Position numbers and translations under genes: made by a program. Shown piece by piece: positions 2,819-59,416 of a DNA stretch of 64,000 bases (position 1 is its first letter; each line of letters starts with the position of its first letter). The notes below the pieces were generated by a model. The model did no database searches. It was not told the DNA's origin and worked only from the letters and a program-made list of their open reading frames with translations. Origin of the DNA: Hymenobacter chitinivorans DSM 11115 (GTDB lineage: Bacteria; Bacteroidota; Bacteroidia; Cytophagales; Hymenobacteraceae); contig NZ_PGFA01000003.1 of the NCBI RefSeq assembly GCF_002797555.1, forward strand, positions 62,001 to 126,000, written 5' to 3'.

Positions 2819-2887
2819 AGCAACGGGAGGGGCGGGCCGATTTGGCCAGGGGCCAAGATACGGCATCGGGGCGTTATCGGGCGCTTT

Positions 2888-2971
2888 GCGACTCCAAGCC
2901 GCGACATTGCGACTCGAGGACGCAACGTCGCGACTCGGAGCGGCGACTTCCCGACTCGGAGCCGCGAGGCT
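2888..2971. repeat. 21-bp degenerate tandem repeat array 1 (4 units)
   Basis: Four consecutive 21-base units start at 2888, 2909, 2930 and 2951. Each begins [GC]CGACTC and carries an (A/G)GCSGCGAC-like block in its second half. The array sits in the intergenic region between the divergent sigma factor and vWA genes, upstream of the sigma start. Its translation gives heptads in all frames simply because 21 is a multiple of three. Confidence 0.8.
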
Positions 2972-2983
2972 GCGGCAAAATAA

Positions 2984-3016
2984 CGCGTCCGCCCGGTGCA
3001 GGACCGGGCGGACGCG
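2984..3016. other. perfect 13-bp-stem hairpin beside array 1
   Basis: CGCGTCCGCCCGG (2984-2996) is exactly complementary to CCGGGCGGACGCG (3004-3016), with a seven-base loop. On the minus strand the stem is followed by TTATTTT, so it may terminate transcription entering the sigma promoter region, or be an RNA structure tied to the array. The rest of this intergenic stretch (3017-3229) shows no gene. Confidence 0.6.
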
Positions 3017-3229
3017 GGTGCGCCAGGATGTAAACTGCTTGTGGCGCAAACTACACCGTTCGCGCTACTGCGCTATTGGACGAGTTGCCGAATTTCAGGG
3101 CTCCGCTGTAGTAGTCAGCAAGATAGAAGAATCCGGCCGGGGCCAAAATTTATTTGCGGGCGGTATGGAATCCGGGCCGGGTCGGCATCAGCACTGGTGA
3201 AACCTTCCTCATCACCGTCGTCTGATTGT

Positions 3230-9766: not shown

Positions 9767-10951
9767 ATGCAAGTCTCCGTAGCCAGCCGCCTCCAGCACA
9801 CCCAGGAGTATTACTTCTCCCGCAAGCTGCGCGAAATCGACGCTATGAACAAGGCCGGGGCCCAGGTTATCAACCTCGGTATCGGCAGCCCCGACATGCC
9901 GCCCCACCCGCGGGTAATTGCGGCCCTGAATCAGGCTGCCACTCAGCCCAACACTCACGCCTACCAGAACTACAAGGGCGTGCCGGCCCTGCGCCAGGCC
10001 ATGGCCGGCTGGTATGAGCGCAGCTACGGCGTCACGCTGGACCCCGAAACGGAAGTGCTGCCCCTGCTGGGCTCCAAGGAAGGCATCATCCACGTGAGCA
10101 TGACTTTCCTGGAAGCCGGCGACGAAGTGCTGATTCCCAACCCCGGCTACCCCGCCTACCGCGCCGCCGCCCACCTGGCCGGCGCCACGCCCGTCGACTA
10201 CGACCTGACGGCCGAAAACAACTGGCTGCCCGACCTGGAGCAGTTGGCCCAGCGCGACCTAAGCCGGGTGAAGCTGATGTGGGTCAACTACCCCCACATG
10301 CCCACCGGCACCCCGCCCGACGCCGCTTTCTTTGTCCGACTGGTGGCCTTTGCCACCGAGCATAATATCCTGCTGGTCCACGATAATCCTTACAGCTTCA
10401 TCCTCAACCAGGAGCCGGCCCAGAGTCTGCTGGCCGTGCCCGGGGCCCGGGAAGTGGTGCTGGAACTCAACTCGTTGAGCAAGTCGCACAATATGGCCGG
10501 CTGGCGCGTGGGCATGCTCCTGGGCCGCGCCGACCTATTGCAGGAAGTGCTGCGCTTCAAGAGCAACCTCGACTCGGGCATGTTCCTGCCGGTGCAGCTG
10601 GCCGCCGTGGAAGCCCTGAGCCTCGATGAAACCTGGTACCAGGAGCTCAACGCCCACTACGCCGCCCGCCGGGAGCTGGTCTTTGAGCTGCTCGACACCA
10701 TCGGCTGCCGCTACGAGCGAAACCAGGTGGGCCTCTTCGTGTGGGCTGCTATTCCGGCCGGCTACCCCGACGGCTACGCCCTGAGCGACGAGCTTCTGCA
10801 CGCGGCCAAGGTCTTCCTTACTCCCGGCGGCATCTTCGGCTCCAACGGCAACGGCTTCATCCGCGTCAGCCTCTGCCAAACCACTGCGGTACTGGAACAA
10901 GCTTTAACCCGAATCAAAGGTGAAATGGTGAGTGGTGAGATGGTGAGTTGA
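9767..10951 (+). CDS. class I/II PLP-dependent aminotransferase of the aromatic operon
   Basis: A fold-type I aminotransferase of 394 residues, cytoplasmic. The PLP lysine lies in NSLSKSHNMAGWR, and the N-terminal NLGIGSPDMPPHP and NPGYPAYR segments match the family. Relatives include LL-diaminopimelate and aromatic aminotransferases; its place between pheA and tyrA suggests transamination of phenylpyruvate or 4-hydroxyphenylpyruvate (inference). The last codons (GEMVSGEMVS) are encoded by the iterated word GGTGAAATGGTGAGTGGTGAGATGGTGAGT, so the natural C-terminus was probably near RIKG and has been extended by repeat sequence. Confidence 0.85.
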   Translation: MQVSVASRLQHTQEYYFSRKLREIDAMNKAGAQVINLGIGSPDMPPHPRVIAALNQAATQPNTHAYQNYKGVPALRQAMAGWYERSYGVTLDPETEVLPLLGSKEGIIHVSMTFLEAGDEVLIPNPGYPAYRAAAHLAGATPVDYDLTAENNWLPDLEQLAQRDLSRVKLMWVNYPHMPTGTPPDAAFFVRLVAFATEHNILLVHDNPYSFILNQEPAQSLLAVPGAREVVLELNSLSKSHNMAGWRVGMLLGRADLLQEVLRFKSNLDSGMFLPVQLAAVEALSLDETWYQELNAHYAARRELVFELLDTIGCRYERNQVGLFVWAAIPAGYPDGYALSDELLHAAKVFLTPGGIFGSNGNGFIRVSLCQTTAVLEQALTRIKGEMVSGEMVS

Positions 10952-11028
10952 CGTTTTTAATGCGCGGTTCTGCGCCAGTCGAACATCAAACTCACCATTT
11001 CACCAGTTCACCATCTCACCACTTCACA
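10918..11028. repeat. word-repeat inverted pair (GGTGARATGGTGA)
   Basis: The left arm, 10918-10950, is built of GGTGAAAT / GGTGAGTG / GGTGAGAT words. The right arm, 10989-11028, is the reverse-complement kind (CTCACCATTTCACC, CACCATCTCACC). The left arm contains the aminotransferase stop; the right arm ends at the tyrA start. Confidence 0.75.
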
Positions 11029-13234: not shown

Positions 13235-13368
13235 CCAGGGCCGCGTTGTGCACGCTCATGTGGAGACGCAACCTCGCCTCTCCCCGTTGAACAACTCTGC
13301 CAGCAGGAATAGGGTAGGATGATTCAGCTCCGCCCGACCGACAAGACGCAACCATGCGTCGCTACCCC

Positions 13369-13406
13369 AAGCCGCCCTTCGCTGCCCGCCAGCGAAGGGC
13401 GGCTTT
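13369..13406 (+). terminator. terminator of the aromatic operon
   Basis: AAGCCGCCCTTCGCTG (13369-13384) is exactly complementary to CAGCGAAGGGCGGCTT (13390-13405) around a five-base loop. Only TTT then CC follows, so the tail is short but the stem is very strong. Confidence 0.8.
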
Positions 13407-13451
13407 CCTATAGAAGGGCCCACCCCGACCTGTTCGAAGCCCGCTCAAAAC

Positions 13452-13682
13452 CCTTAGGAGCCGCCCTTCAGGCTTTAGGAACCGTACTTCAGCCTTTAGG
13501 AGCCGTACTTCAGGCTTTAGGAATCATACTTCAGCCTTTAGGAACCATACTTCAGGCTTTAGGAGCCTCACTTCAGCCTTTAGGAACCGCACTTCAGGCG
13601 TTAGTAGCCCTACTTCAAGCTTTAGGAACCGCACTTCAGGCTTTAGGAGTCCCGTCAACGACTTTAGGAGCCTTACCAACGC
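13452..13682. repeat. 21-bp degenerate tandem repeat array 2 (11 units)
   Basis: Eleven units of exactly 21 bases start at 13452 and every 21 bases to 13662. The consensus is CTTTAGGA, five variable bases, then ACTTCAGG or ACTTCAGC. The last base alternates G and C over the first seven units, so the true period may be 42. The final two units diverge in their second half. The array follows the aromatic operon terminator and ends 210 bases before the acyltransferase start. No cas genes are nearby, and the unit is too short for CRISPR. Confidence 0.92.
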
Positions 13683-13892
13683 TCTACAAATCGGGCTCAG
13701 GCCGGCAGATTGCGGGTAAAAAGTCGTTTTGTTAGACATATACTCCCCGCGCTTCAGAAAGGAATTGCTGGTTTTATGGCCAGACAGCGCCCAAACCGCC
13801 CTCCTAGCGTCAGACTTTTCAAAAACCGCCCACCCACCGCCTATCCGGCCCGTTTCATTGTCCGGCTCCGAGAATTGGCCGTACTTAGGCCC

Positions 13893-31288: not shown

Positions 31289-33007
31289 CTACAAAGCTCG
31301 CGCTACAGCTTGCTCAGCCGCGGCGGGCTGGCCGGCAAAGCGCCGGTTCAGGCCCCTAATCAGGGTGCCGAGCAGTAGCAGCACGGCCAGCACCTGCATG
31401 CCGGGGCCCAGCAGCTCGCCGTGGCGCACGTAGAAGGTCAGCTCCTCGTTGAGGCGCACGGTATAGCGGCGGCCGGCCTGAATCCACCAGCCGGTCTGGG
31501 TTTGGATGCGGCCCTTCTGGTCGATAAAGGCGGAAATGCCGGTGTTGGCCGAGCGGGCAATGTCGCGGCGGGTTTCGATGGCCCGCAGCGTGGCGTACTG
31601 CAGGTGCTGGTTGTGGCCGGGTGAGTCGCTCCACCACCCGTCGTTGGTGATGATGCCAATCAGCGTGGCCCCGTTCTGAATGTACTGGTTCACAAAGTCG
31701 CCGTACACCGATTCATAGCAAATCACCGGGGCCACGCGCAACGTGGAGTCGGCGGCGGCCATGCGGTACACGGTGCGCTCCTTTTGGCTGCCCAGGCCGC
31801 CGGCCGTGCCGCCCAGGTCGATGGTGGCGGCCTTCACCCAGTTGGGCACGCCTTCTACCCCCGGCACCAGCCTCGACTTATGGTAGAACCCGGCCCGGCC
31901 CGTGGCGCTGGGGAAGTGCACGGCCGTGTTGAAGAAGTCGTAGTAGCCCAGGTCGTCGCGGAAGCGGGCCGTTTCGCTGGCCGTTTCCTTGCTGGGGTAG
32001 GCCACCACGCTGGTCACGCCCGTAATGAGCTCCAGCCCCGGGTGCATACTCAGGAATTGCCGCACGCGCTGCACCTTGGGGTAGCTTTCGAAGTTGGCTT
32101 CCCAGTAGGGCTCGTCCAGGGCCGTTTCGGGCCAGAGCACCAGCCGCGTCTGGGGCGACAGCTGCTTCTCGGTGAGCTGAATCAGGCGGGTGAGCTGCTC
32201 GTCGTAGGAAATGAAGTTGGCCGTGCCCTCAAACTTCTCCTGGAAGGGGTCCACGTTGGGCTGAATCACCAGCACTTCCACCGGCTTGCCTTTTTCCTGG
32301 TAGGTGCTGCCAACCAGCAACGAGAGGCCGATGGGCAGCACCGTGGCCAGCAGCGGCGCAGCCCAGCGGCGCAGAGGTGCGGCAGGTGCGGAGCTTTCGG
32401 TTTTGGAGCCCAACCCAAACAGGGCTTTGAACACCAGAATATTGACCACCCAAATCCAGAGCGAGCCGCCCAGAAAGCCGGTGTACTCATACCACTGAAT
32501 CAGCTGGTTGGCCTGGGCAAAGCCGTTGCCCAGCGTAAGCCAGGGCCAGGTGAAGTCCCAGTGCAGGTGGAGCTGCTCGAAGGCAATCCAGTAGATGGGC
32601 AAGGAAATATAGCCCAGCACCGGGCCCGCCAGCCGCTTAGTGTGGTAAAAGGCCATGGTGGGCAAACACATCAGCAAGGCGTTGAGCACCACGGCCGTGA
32701 CGCCGCCGCCCACCGTGCTGTAGCTCACCCAGTAGGTCACAAACAAATTCCAGAGCACCAGCGTGAGGTAGGTGTAGCGAAACACCTTCCAGCCGCTGCT
32801 GCCCCGCTGCACCAGCACCTGCTCCAGGCGCAGGTAGGGCACCCAGGCCACCAGCAGGAGCAGGGCCAGGGGCGCAGGGTGCACCGGCCAGCCTACCCAT
32901 AACAATGCCGCGGTGAGGAAAGCCAGCCCCGCCGGCCCCCACTTGCTATTCCCGATTTCCTTGAACGACGACAACGATTTCTCCTTTAATGGCTGCACGA
33001 CCCGCAA
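31289..33007 (-). CDS. lnt: apolipoprotein N-acyltransferase
   Basis: Inner-membrane enzyme that adds the third acyl chain to lipoproteins. The N-terminal half has about six to eight transmembrane helices. The nitrilase-like domain carries the catalytic Glu (LWPETAL), Lys (FYHKSRLVPGVEGVP) and Cys (PVICYESVYG); a final helix closes the protein. Length (572 at most) fits the family. The frame begins with a TTG at 33007 inside the end of rsmI and has no early ATG, so the true start is uncertain by about 10-25 codons. It overlaps rsmI, which implies coupling. Confidence 0.9.
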   Translation of the reverse strand: MRVVQPLKEKSLSSFKEIGNSKWGPAGLAFLTAALLWVGWPVHPAPLALLLLVAWVPYLRLEQVLVQRGSSGWKVFRYTYLTLVLWNLFVTYWVSYSTVGGGVTAVVLNALLMCLPTMAFYHTKRLAGPVLGYISLPIYWIAFEQLHLHWDFTWPWLTLGNGFAQANQLIQWYEYTGFLGGSLWIWVVNILVFKALFGLGSKTESSAPAAPLRRWAAPLLATVLPIGLSLLVGSTYQEKGKPVEVLVIQPNVDPFQEKFEGTANFISYDEQLTRLIQLTEKQLSPQTRLVLWPETALDEPYWEANFESYPKVQRVRQFLSMHPGLELITGVTSVVAYPSKETASETARFRDDLGYYDFFNTAVHFPSATGRAGFYHKSRLVPGVEGVPNWVKAATIDLGGTAGGLGSQKERTVYRMAAADSTLRVAPVICYESVYGDFVNQYIQNGATLIGIITNDGWWSDSPGHNQHLQYATLRAIETRRDIARSANTGISAFIDQKGRIQTQTGWWIQAGRRYTVRLNEELTFYVRHGELLGPGMQVLAVLLLLGTLIRGLNRRFAGQPAAAEQAVARAL

Positions 33008-33644
33008 AATCGGCCGCCAGCTCAGCCAGCGTCCCGTTCACGGTTTCTTCAAATAACTTGGTCAGCTCCCGGCTTACCGAGGCCAGCCGCTCGGGCCCGA
33101 AGGCCTCGGCCAGCTGCTCCAGGGTCTTGACGATGCGGTGGGGCGACTCGTAAAAAATCATGGTGCGCTGCTCCTGCTGTAGCTCCCGGATGCGGGTTTG
33201 CCGGCCTTTCTTGACCGGCAGAAAGCCCTCAAACGTGAACCGCTCCGCCCCGAAGCCCGATTTGAGCAACGCCGGCACGAAGGCCGTGGCCCCGGGCAAA
33301 CACTCCACTTTCAGCCCTTTAGCCAGGCACTCGCGCACCAACAAAAACCCGGGGTCGGAAATTCCGGGCGTACCCGCATCCGACACCAAGGCCATCTTCT
33401 CGCCCTTCTCCAGGCGGTCCAGCACCCGCTGCACGGTCTGGTGCTCGTTGTGCAGATGGTAGCTCAGCATGGGCTTTTTCAAACCCAAATGCTGCATCAG
33501 CCGGCCGCTGGTGCGGGTGTCTTCGGCCAGCACCACATCCACTTCGCCCAGAATTCGGATGGCCCGCAGGGTGATATCCTCCAGGTTGCCGATGGGCGTG
33601 GGCACGAGGTACAGAACGGTAGGCGTTTCAGACGAGTCAGACAT
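32946..33644 (-). CDS. rsmI: 16S rRNA (cytidine1402-2'-O)-methyltransferase
   Basis: A 232-residue SAM-dependent tetrapyrrole-methylase-fold enzyme that methylates the 2'-OH of C1402 in the ribosomal P site. Signature segments: VPTPIGNLEDITLRA, LAEDTRTSG, SDAGTPGISDPG, LPGATAFVPAL and IFYESPHR. The ATG at 33644 gives the standard N-terminus. The 3' end overlaps lnt. The long 21-bp repeat array 3 lies directly upstream. Confidence 0.94.
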   Translation of the reverse strand: MSDSSETPTVLYLVPTPIGNLEDITLRAIRILGEVDVVLAEDTRTSGRLMQHLGLKKPMLSYHLHNEHQTVQRVLDRLEKGEKMALVSDAGTPGISDPGFLLVRECLAKGLKVECLPGATAFVPALLKSGFGAERFTFEGFLPVKKGRQTRIRELQQEQRTMIFYESPHRIVKTLEQLAEAFGPERLASVSRELTKLFEETVNGTLAELAADFAGRAAIKGEIVVVVQGNRE

Positions 33645-33657: not shown

Positions 33658-33723
33658 ACACGCGGCGTCACTCCTGGCGGAAGCTTACTAGCCCAGCCAC
33701 TTTCACTACCTCCTCCGTGCTAG

Positions 33724-34083
33724 ATATGCATATGGAAGGTATAGATACATAGTAAGGCAAACTCGATAGGTTGACGAAACTGATAGATATATCCTCATGC
33801 TTCATATATCTACAGCGAGGCTCCATATATTCATCGAAGAGCTTCTTATATCTACCGAAGCGGCTTTTCTATCCATCAAAGAGGTCTTTATATGCACCGA
33901 AGAGGTTGCACTATGCATCGCAAGGATATTTCTATGCATCGAAGAGGACCTTCTATTCATCGAAGAGAAACTTCTATTCATCGAAGGGAAATTTCTATTC
34001 ATTGAAGAGATATATCTATCCATTGAAGATAACTTTCTATACACAGACAAGAAGTTTCGATACAGAGATGCCCTTTCTCGATA
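33724..34083. repeat. 21-bp degenerate tandem repeat array 3 (about 17 units)
   Basis: Units of exactly 21 bases run from about 33724 to 34080, best conserved from 33808. The consensus is AT(T/G)CATCGAAGAG, then four or five variable bases, then CTTCT; early and late units keep mainly the AT start and the register. Several units can form a small GAAG / CTTC stem. The DNA is clearly more AT-rich than its surroundings. The array fills the gap between rsmI and the pterin dehydratase gene. Several frames on both strands are open, a by-product of the 21-base period. Confidence 0.92.
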
Positions 34084-34087
34084 CTCG

Positions 34088-34699
34088 TTAGCCCACCCCG
34101 TAGCGGGCGGCTGCGGCGTCGATGGCGGCGGCCAGGCGGTGGTCCCGCTTGGTGACGGTGTTGCCCGCGTCGTGGGTGCGCAGACGAAATTCCACCCGGC
34201 CGTACTCGTTGGCCCACCAGGGGTGATGGTCGAGGCGCTCGGCTTCGGCGGCCACTTCGCTCATAAAGGCCCAGGCCGTTTTGAAATCGGCGAATTGAAA
34301 GCTGCGGCAGAGGCTGTTGTCCTGTTCGGTCCACGTAGTTTCAGCGAGACGGTGCATTTTGGCCTGTTCCCAGCTAAGGCCAACCCATTCTGGTATCCGC
34401 CGAGGGGATGTTAAAGGCACATCTATCTGAATTGCTCCACCCAGCTGCTCTAATACGAATATAGCTGTAAGCCCTAGGTATCTAACGTTACCCTCTGTTG
34501 AGTTAAAAGCCGTGACATAATAACTGCGCTTTTTTATGTCCAAATCCAGGTCAATATGACGCCCTATTTCCTTGCTACTTAGAATAAATGTTTCTGGGTC
34601 AAAGCTTAATTCATGCCCTACGACACTACTGATTCTGCTGATAACAGTATCAAAAGCGGGTGGTACTGCCGGAAATTTTAGCGTGACATGGCTCAGCAT
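34088..34699 (-). CDS. pterin-4a-carbinolamine dehydratase with an extra N-terminal domain
   Basis: A 203-residue protein. Residues about 120-200 are a 4a-hydroxytetrahydrobiopterin dehydratase domain (FADFKTAWAFMSEVA, LDHHPWWANEYGRVEFRLRTHD, NTVTKRDHRLAAAID), which recycles the pterin cofactor of aromatic amino acid hydroxylases. The family is normally 75-110 residues. Here about 105 extra residues precede it (MLSHVTLKFPAV ... QIDVPLTS); I do not recognise this part. It is encoded by visibly more AT-rich DNA (about 34400-34699) than the dehydratase part, suggesting fusion by recombination. Array 3 abuts its stop codon. Confidence 0.8.
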   Translation of the reverse strand: MLSHVTLKFPAVPPAFDTVISRISSVVGHELSFDPETFILSSKEIGRHIDLDLDIKKRSYYVTAFNSTEGNVRYLGLTAIFVLEQLGGAIQIDVPLTSPRRIPEWVGLSWEQAKMHRLAETTWTEQDNSLCRSFQFADFKTAWAFMSEVAAEAERLDHHPWWANEYGRVEFRLRTHDAGNTVTKRDHRLAAAIDAAAARYGVG

Positions 34700-40014: not shown

Positions 40015-40160
40015 CAATGAGCGAATGAGTGAATGCGTAAATGAGTGAATTGACTTGTAAAAACCAGCCGGGTAGCATCCTGAACCCGTTCGTTTTCGTT
40101 TGTCTTTTGTTATTCATTCCACGCTCGGCTCACTCATTTACTCATTCACTCATTCACTGC
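40015..40160. repeat. word-repeat inverted pair (GAATGAGT) between glyA and tatC
   Basis: AATGAGCGAATGAGTGAATG ... AAATGAGTGAATT (40017-40052) is answered by TCACTCATTTACTCATTC and ACTCATTCACTG (about 40129-40159). The arms flank about 75 bases with no gene. Confidence 0.75.
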
Positions 40161-41599: not shown

Positions 41600-41670
41600 C
41601 GGTGAATGAGTGAATGAGTGAAGTGTTCAATTGGCACGGTACTGCGCCGTAGGCTACTTCACTCATTCAC
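41597..41670. repeat. word-repeat inverted pair spanning two convergent stop codons
   Basis: TAGCGGTGAATGAGTGAATG ... from the rpiB stop is answered by CTTCACTCATTCAC (41657-41670), which contains the stop of the convergent membrane-protein gene. Between them, TACTGCGCCGTAGGC forms a small inner hairpin. Confidence 0.78.
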
Positions 41671-43282: not shown

Positions 43283-43726
43283 ATGGAAAGTAAACGACAG
43301 CAAAAGTTTGCCAGCCTCCTGCAGCAGGACCTGGCAGCCGTCTTTCAACGCGACTTACCGCACCTGTTTCCCGGCCTACCGCCGGGCATCAGCACCATCC
43401 GGGTGTCGCCCGACTTGGGCGTGGCCCGCGTGTACCTGAGCAGCCTGCTGGCCAACACTGGCCCGGCCCTGCTCGAACTGGTGCGTGACAACAGCAAGGA
43501 AATCCGCCAGGCCCTGGCCAAGCGGATTCGCCAGCAGGTGCGCATCATCCCCGAACTGGTTTTCTTCCTCGACGACAGCGCCGAGTACGCCGCCCACATG
43601 GACGCCGTGCTGGGCAAGCTCGACATTCCGGCTGAAACGCCCGAGGACCCCACCGACCCCAAAACCACCGACGAGCCCAAAGGCCCCGCCCGCCCCAAGC
43701 TCTTCGCCGACGAGGATAGTGAATGA
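43283..43726 (+). CDS. rbfA: 30S ribosome-binding factor A
   Basis: A 147-residue protein. Residues 1-112 are RbfA (RQQKFASLLQQDLAAVFQRD, IRVSPDLGVARVYLS, VRIIPELVFFLDDSAEYAAHMD), which assists 16S rRNA maturation in the 30S subunit. A 35-residue Pro/Asp/Lys-rich tail follows (PEDPTDPKTTDEPKG). ATG 43283 is used; upstream codons are intergenic. The last codons and stop (GATAGTGAATGA) run into GAGTGAGTGAATGAGTG word repeats. Confidence 0.9.
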   Translation: MESKRQQKFASLLQQDLAAVFQRDLPHLFPGLPPGISTIRVSPDLGVARVYLSSLLANTGPALLELVRDNSKEIRQALAKRIRQQVRIIPELVFFLDDSAEYAAHMDAVLGKLDIPAETPEDPTDPKTTDEPKGPARPKLFADEDSE

Positions 43727-43837
43727 GTGAGTGAGTGAATGAGTGAAGCAGCCTACGGCGCCGGACCGCGCCAATTGAACACTTCACTTATTCACCCACT
43801 CACCACCTCACTCATTCACCATTTCACTCCTTCACTG
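43718..43837. repeat. word-repeat inverted pair (GAATGAGT) between rbfA and a methyltransferase gene
   Basis: GTGAATGAGTGAGTGAGTGA and ATGAGTGAAG (43719-43747) are answered by CTTCACTTATTCACCCACTC and CCTCACTCATTCACCATTTC (43783-43837). It begins within the rbfA end and finishes just before the TTG start of the next gene. CCTACGGCGCC is shared, inverted, with the 41597 element. Confidence 0.78.
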
Positions 43838-57808: not shown

Positions 57809-59305
57809 TTGGCCCGCAAACCCAAGTCCAGCAGCTCCCTCAAGCCCGCCGTTGCCGTTATTGGGGCCGGTATTGCCGGTATTGCCGCCGCCCTGCGCCT
57901 GGCTTTGAAAGGCCACGCCGTGACGGTGTTTGAAGCCCAGGACACGTTTGGGGGCAAGATGTACCAGTTCGACCTGCCCGGTGGCTACCGCTTCGACGCC
58001 GGCCCCTCGCTCTTTACCCTGCCGGCCCTGGTGGATGAGCTGTTCCGGCTGGCCGGCCGCCGCCCCCAGGACCACTTCCGCTACGAGCGGCTCGACCCGA
58101 TTACCCAGTACTTTTTCGCCGACGGCACCCGCCTCACCGCCTGGGCCGACGAGGAAAAGTTTGCTGACGAAGTCGAGGCCAAGCTGGGCGTGCCGGCGGC
58201 CCAGGTCACGCAATTTCTGCAACGCAGCGGCGCGGCTTACCAGGCCACCGAAAGCACGTTTCTGCATAAGTCCTTGCACAAGCTGGGTACTTACCTGAGC
58301 AAGGACGTGCTGGGCGCCCTGGCGGCCCTGCCCAGTCTGGGCCTGACGGGCACCATGCACCAGCGCCACGCCAAGGCCTTCCCTGACCCGCGCCTGGTGC
58401 AGCTCTTCGACCGGTTTGCCACCTACAACGGCTCCGACCCCTACCAGGCCCCGGCCACGCTGAGCCTTATTCCGCACCTGGAGCACGGCATCGGCGCATT
58501 TTACCCCGAAGGCGGCATTCACAGCATTGCCCGCAGCCTGGTAGAGCTGGCCGAGGAACTGGGCGTGGAATTCCGCTACCAGGAGCCAGTGGAGGAAATT
58601 CTGACGGCCGGCGGGCAGGTAACCGGGGTGCGCACGGCCCGGGACATCTACGATTTCGGCGTGGTCGTCAGCAACATGGACGTGGTGCCGACCTACCGCC
58701 GCCTGCTGCCCACCCAGCCCGCCCCCGAGCGGACCCTGGGCCAGCCCCGCTCGTCCTCGGCCCTGATTTTTTACTGGGGCGTGGCCCGCCGCTTCCCCGA
58801 GCTGGACCTGCACAACATCTTCTTCAGCCAGGATTACCGCCGGGAGTTCCAGGCCATTTTCGAGGAGAAAACCGTCAGCGACGACCCGACGGTGTACGTG
58901 AACATTACGGCCAAGAAAACGCCCACCGACGCCCCGGCCGGCCACGAAAACTGGTTTGTGATGGTGAACGTGCCCCACAACCAGGGCCAGGACTGGGACG
59001 CGCTGATCCAAAAGACCCGGCGGGCCGTACTGGCTAAAGTAGGCCGGGCCCTGGGCACGGAGCTGGAGCCCCTGCTGCGGGCCGAGCAGGTCTGGGACCC
59101 GCGCGGTATTGAGCAGCGCACTTCCTCCTTTGGCGGGGCCCTTTACGGCAGCTCCTCCAACAACGCGCTGGCGGCGTTTCTGCGCCACCCCAACTTTTCG
59201 GGGAAGCTGCAAGGACTGTACTTTTGCGGCGGCAGCGTCCACCCCGGCGGCGGAATTCCGCTGAGCCTGCTCTCGGCCAAGATTGTGGCTGATTTAATCA
59301 ATTAG
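57809..59305 (+). CDS. crtD: CrtI/CrtD-type carotenoid desaturase
   Basis: A 498-residue FAD-dependent phytoene-desaturase-family enzyme. The N-terminal dinucleotide-binding motif is VIGAGIAGIAAALRLALKGH with FEAQDTFGGKM, then RFDAGPSLFTLP; the C-terminal GGSVHPGGGIPLSLLSAK is typical. Pairing with a CruF-like gene directly downstream suggests CrtD (3,4-desaturation of hydroxylated carotenoids, toward flexixanthin-type pigments) rather than CrtI, though sequence alone does not settle it. The start appears to be TTG at 57809. Confidence 0.85.
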   Translation: MARKPKSSSSLKPAVAVIGAGIAGIAAALRLALKGHAVTVFEAQDTFGGKMYQFDLPGGYRFDAGPSLFTLPALVDELFRLAGRRPQDHFRYERLDPITQYFFADGTRLTAWADEEKFADEVEAKLGVPAAQVTQFLQRSGAAYQATESTFLHKSLHKLGTYLSKDVLGALAALPSLGLTGTMHQRHAKAFPDPRLVQLFDRFATYNGSDPYQAPATLSLIPHLEHGIGAFYPEGGIHSIARSLVELAEELGVEFRYQEPVEEILTAGGQVTGVRTARDIYDFGVVVSNMDVVPTYRRLLPTQPAPERTLGQPRSSSALIFYWGVARRFPELDLHNIFFSQDYRREFQAIFEEKTVSDDPTVYVNITAKKTPTDAPAGHENWFVMVNVPHNQGQDWDALIQKTRRAVLAKVGRALGTELEPLLRAEQVWDPRGIEQRTSSFGGALYGSSSNNALAAFLRHPNFSGKLQGLYFCGGSVHPGGGIPLSLLSAKIVADLIN

Positions 59306-59416
59306 TAATGAGTAATTAGTAATTAATAATTGAGCGTGTGTTATGCCAGTCGGCAGCTTCGCCGGGGCCAAAACCACTCTTAGATATTAACTGCTGATTC
59401 CTAATTCCCTTCTTAA

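Follow-up and report, generated by a model that had tools for sequence, protein, structure and literature searches.

A 21-bp tandem array between a phhB-like gene and rsmI in Hymenobacter chitinivorans and its relation to intergenic arrays of constant period and variable sequence

The window analyzed here is a stretch of 64,000 nucleotides from Hymenobacter chitinivorans DSM 11115 (NZ_PGFA01000003.1, positions 62,001 to 126,000). A tandem array, array 3 (33721 to 34090, minus strand), lies in it between two genes on the minus strand. Downstream of the array is rsmI, of the tetrapyrrole-methylase family (32946 to 33644, start at 33644), and its other end coincides with the stop codon (34088 to 34090) of a phhB-like open reading frame (ORF; 34088 to 34699, minus strand), in which a Pfam Pterin_4a domain occupies residues 116 to 195 of 203. 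The N terminus of this ORF (34358 to 34699; ∼115 residues) has no Pfam match and a lower G+C content; because homologues from relatives align mainly to the C-terminal domain, it may represent an upstream piece that is separate or has decayed.

Array 3 is made up of approximately 17 units of 21 bp that are most similar mid-array and degenerate at both edges. An earlier, sequence-only reading had proposed this unit number and length, and in addition to a listing of the units, three analyses agreed with it. TRF reported periods of 21/42/63 over 33828 to 34040, and cyclic-profile alignment fitted 17.2 units to ∼33724 to 34084, at a mismatch of 32% and with a single apparent indel. Within the phhB-rsmI gap, identity at lag 21 reached 0.85 to 0.87 over windows of 63 to 84 bp (shuffle mean, 0.37; 0/200 shuffles as high). 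The register had also been drawn from the phhB-like stop codon almost to rsmI; the first boundary holds, but the 21-bp phase starts near 33721, ∼77 bp ahead of the rsmI ATG. Similarly, the AT-richness emphasized in that reading is real for array 3 (G+C content, ∼0.40 versus ∼0.62 in the surroundings) but does not characterize the class, given that the other 21-bp-family arrays listed range from 0.44 to 0.68.

In the rsmI sense, the consensus unit of array 3 is TTCGATGAATAGAAAAATCTC. The best-kept units (33825 to 34047, minus strand) carry the core TCGATGNATAGAA once per 21 bp; allowing two or fewer mismatches, this core was matched 13 times in the window against 1.2 expected, with nine of the matches on the minus strand within this span. 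It also recurs in an array at G000:C2:477.5 kb. The alternation of kept and variable stretches resembles that of CRISPR arrays; however, the core of array 3 is ∼13 bp and the variable part, of ∼8 bp, is related between units. No cas genes were present among the flanking genes examined, the immediate flanks of array 3 being the phhB-like gene and rsmI. A repeat borne by a transposon or MITE was considered and rejected: a plasmid homology search with array 3 returned no match, and a DNA search of its own genome returned one further partial match only (67%), which is itself an array.

The window holds other arrays of this kind. Array 1 (2861 to 3019, plus strand) is a weaker array of 21-bp period flanked by an ECF-type sigma factor gene and a vWA gene, and array 2 (13443 to 13690, plus strand) has a period of 21 and a unit, CTTTAGGAACCGTACTTCAGG, that differs from that of array 3. 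A survey covering 2.06 Mb of the 5.87-Mb genome, in which genes were called with a codon model of our own and intergenic gaps of at least 110 bp were scanned at lags of 12 to 63, identified 42 intergenic tandem arrays, 30 of which (71%) had a lag of 21, 42, or 63. Periods of 18, 24, and 27 were nearly absent, and an initial round of block shuffles, on a subset of the survey data, yielded zero arrays. Extrapolation to the whole genome gives about 85 arrays at 21/42/63. Pairs of array consensus sequences were mostly related at chance level, with 8 pairs sharing at least 14 of 21 letters against ∼0.6 expected. The flanking genes had no common theme in the 20 cases examined, and none of them suggests an array-binding protein. 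A preference of the arrays for the 3′ ends of tandem genes, estimated by us from distances, was weak and not significant. In more distant Bacteroidota, long-period arrays were mostly of other periods or inside open frames.

Array 3 could be supposed to encode a heptapeptide repeat, since its 21-bp step is divisible by 3 and much of it is spanned by ORFs of 106 and 205 amino acids (plus strand) and 82 amino acids (minus strand). This is highly improbable: no Pfam match was obtained, no frame is open across the whole aligned span, and open frames over all arrays (24/33) were close to the column-permuted expectation (20.6/33). Coding repeats are also at odds with the scarcity of the other multiples of 3 among the periods.

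Alignment of 33 arrays to their own consensus sequences gave 2743 mismatches and 39 apparent indels, and 18 of the 33 were indel free. This corresponds to ∼70 substitutions per apparent indel, compared with 9.8 in ordinary orthologous intergenic DNA of this genome and its close relative G051. Because a fixed-lag detector favors indel-free arrays, arrays were simulated at 25 to 30% divergence and passed to the detector and aligner used for the real ones. Under a neutral indel ratio, the simulated arrays retained 13 to 14 substitutions per indel, and 0/70 were indel free, whereas those simulated without indels gave 65 to 122 substitutions per indel, with 42/80 indel free. The observed arrays fit essentially no real indels, that is, a rigid phase with a drifting sequence, with the caveat that part of the mismatches could stem from the unit-making process and not from point mutation, which would spoil the indel comparison.

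Most of the genus retains the phhB-rsmI order, and the two genes are separated by 26 to 588 bp. An array was found at this gap in 3 of ∼27 Hymenobacter species, and no convincing array was seen there in the ∼24 others; array 3 is therefore dispensable. A scan of genome contigs with RsmI returned only three Hymenobacter, the others being more distant Bacteroidota. The sequence-only reading had suggested checking relatives for an array of the same period but different sequence at this site, which most species lack. Such an array is carried by H. jeollabukensis (RsmI, 87% identity), which has ∼14 units of TTGGCTTGCTCGAAAGGTGTT in the gap, mostly different in sequence from array 3 and with a weak likeness to it on the same strand (13/300 permutations). 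In G051, the RsmI of which is 99% identical, the gap contains a short degenerate homologue of four in-phase units (lag-21 identity, 0.51; 0/200 shuffles). These units match the array 3 profile (0/300 column permutations), and therefore the long array either grew from a short homologue or was reduced to one in G051. An array orthologous to array 2 was also found in G051; through ten units, TAGGA(A/G) is repeated there at 21-bp steps, although drift has changed most of the other columns. No other single observation argues as strongly for retention of the core and the phase but not of the spacers. No array was seen upstream of the array 2 orthologue in G032, nor was a counterpart of array 1 seen in the aligned G051 gap.

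A functionless minisatellite, in which slippage or unequal exchange amplifies a unit of 21 bp, the unit-making process sets its length, and decay proceeds from the edges, is possible but on balance unlikely. It accounts for units that are most alike in the middle of array 3, for lineage-specific arrays (17 units here, 4 in G051, and none in most species), and for an uneven density, with 30 arrays at 21/42/63 in the 2.06 Mb surveyed here, a single array in 0.4 Mb of G051, and none in the 0.28 Mb scanned of G032 and G020. However, slippage alone predicts many periods, and 71% of arrays fall at 21/42/63; indels are missing relative to substitutions; and the columns of array 2 in G051 decay unevenly, with the core retained.

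The arrays at 21/42/63 occur in two forms. Twenty of the 30, array 3 among them, are arranged head to tail with a 21-bp step, and the remaining 10 repeat only at 42 bp, with significant dyad symmetry in 8 of these 10. The 42-bp dyad arrays amount to 21-bp halves of alternating orientation, and in the array at L029 (∼13361 to 13832) units are inverted in place with the phase intact. Six of the ten 42-bp arrays lie between convergent genes, compared with 108 of 955 background gaps, and the dyad-symmetric ones have a strong predicted RNA fold on both strands (mean z, −8.2); on these grounds, the 42-bp dyad arrays may act as terminators. In being alternately inverted, intergenic, and often between convergent genes, they resemble REP/BIME elements. 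They differ in having no palindrome common genome-wide, each array having its own sequence, and in a step of 21/42, while array 3 is head to tail and not palindromic and has a single partial counterpart in its own genome. Two 42-bp arrays between convergent genes have further features. Directly 5′ of the dyad-symmetric array at L003 is a near-perfect palindrome of ∼54 bp (L003:13749-13802) whose ends carry runs of A and T, as in a bidirectional terminator, and the array at L007:8170-8613 carries ACGTACGT / GTACGCGCGTAC palindromes in every second row.

These folds, together with the report that satellites of another bacterium are transcribed (PMC8625621), raise the idea of an RNA element, in which the transcribed array would act as a chain of small hairpins or serve as a precursor of small RNAs. 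This is improbable for array 3. The sequence-only reading had placed a GAAG/CTTC hairpin in every unit, but exact copies of the pair are present in two or three units only, and the consensus has no dyad above chance (12/21 versus a null mean of 12.0; P = 0.73). Against dinucleotide shuffles, array 3 had MFE z scores of −2.0 (rsmI-sense strand) and −0.75 (opposite strand), and no fold beyond column-permuted controls was found (−1.6 on both strands). The predicted fold is long range and not the proposed series of 17 small hairpins. An Rfam search of the window gave no match at gathering score, and head-to-tail arrays in general were mostly without RNA structure beyond column-permuted controls. 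Moreover, stems would not require an exact 21-bp step without indels.

Overall, the interpretation first offered is partly supported. Its suggestion of phased DNA sites along a single face of the helix is consistent with the lock at 21/42/63, the near absence of indels, and a core that stays in phase while spacers diverge. A DNA-level function is favored because coding and intrinsic bending are unlikely and RNA hairpins misfit the head-to-tail form. Intrinsic phased bending was considered and set aside, as no 10- to 11-bp sub-period was found in the letters or in A/T steps. Our preferred reading, held tentatively and at somewhat less than an even prospect, is that the arrays act at the DNA level, as sites in phase with two helical turns for a putative binding protein. 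Array 3 would be one of a set of genome-wide intergenic satellites with a step fixed at 21 bp, equal to two turns of B-DNA, and the sequence may vary by locus while the step stays constant. A short core in each unit (TCGATGNATAGAA in array 3) would be recognized by a putative DNA-binding protein or protein family at 21-bp intervals along one face of the helix, which could allow many copies to bind side by side. The result would be a phased nucleoprotein stretch between transcription units, possibly serving nucleoid organization, insulation between transcription units, or regulation; the binding, its cooperativity, and its purpose are what we infer from the pattern of the repeats. Supporting the reading are the fixed period, the near absence of indels, and the in-phase core with diverging spacers, as well as the presence of the array 3 core at a second locus, the lineage-specific expansion, the lack of a coding signal, and the lack of general RNA structure in head-to-tail arrays. 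As a counterpoint, a generator that advances by exactly 21 bp could lock the period in the absence of selection. A wider version, in which some 80 to 90 scattered arrays are read by a putative protein system through their spacing (21 bp, or 42 bp in the inverted form) more than their sequence, and would make up a chromosome-wide organizing or insulating system set by helical phase with a core that changes per locus, is speculative and rather doubtful.

In-phase direct repeats of ∼20 bp are known from plasmid iterons and partition-site repeats, which are protein-binding sites. Array 3 is similar in layout, but arrays of this kind occupy dozens of chromosomal loci with differing sequences, and array 3 itself is flanked by phhB-like and rsmI genes, not rep or par. 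The closest known system is that of Subirana and Messeguer, who described bacterial tandem repeats of constant size (20 to 23 or 52 nt) and variable sequence that are non-coding and species specific, with several sequence families per genome and short shared cores, and suggested either a protein that polymerizes on DNA and needs a constant repeat size or small RNAs (PMC8161180). The Hymenobacter arrays belong to these known satellites. They share with them a constant unit length at many loci with differing sequences (30/42 at 21/42/63 here), some related families among loci (the 8 similar pairs, and the unit common to array 3 and the array at C2:477.5 kb), and a non-coding nature (intergenic by gene call, with frames near the permuted expectation and without Pfam matches). 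They are likewise species specific and poorly conserved in position (3 of ∼27 Hymenobacter species), and a short core is present in the units (TCGATGNATAGAA in array 3 and TAGGA in array 2 of G051). The abstract of a 2020 survey by Subirana and Messeguer in J Bacteriol reportedly mentions satellites of 22/44 nt, which would parallel the 21/42 forms here. The Hymenobacter arrays differ in being exactly 21 bp and in having a 42-bp dyad sister form enriched between convergent genes; furthermore, the near absence of indels was measured and orthologous arrays were compared between species. A search of the available literature found no report of such arrays in Hymenobacter. What is added to the known satellites is the lack of indels, two orientation forms with a bias in gene context, and orthologous arrays that have diverged to different degrees.

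Some bacterial genomes contain unexplained satellites of constant length and variable sequence. The comparison of an array-rich species with relatives in which orthologous arrays stand at different stages provides quantitative evidence that helical phase is kept and sequence is not, and the rsmI gap and array 2 are defined loci at which to seek a binding protein. If a phase-reading protein exists, it would represent a new principle of bacterial chromosome organization; if not, the arrays would bring to light a process of replication or recombination whose step is fixed at 21 bp.

Repeats of other lengths were also observed. A small family of 41-bp repeats (L097:10140-10310, L146:18790-19040, and, in the close relative G051, L076:13980-14190) falls outside the 21-bp rule, and therefore 21/42 is not absolute in this genome. 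Its copies in H. chitinivorans have GAGGAATCCTCA palindromes at 41-bp intervals, separated by AACAATTGTT-like stretches, and related letters recur in G051. The window also contains scattered 8-bp repeats of GTGAATGA / TCACTCAT type on both strands (10919 to 11027, 40016 to 40158, 41602 to 41622, and 43718 to 43836), with a similar stretch in H. telluris (L173:2604-2748). Short arrays of 7-bp units (lag 14) were located at 59300 to 59331 of the window, at L178:7547-7697, and at other Bacteroidota loci.
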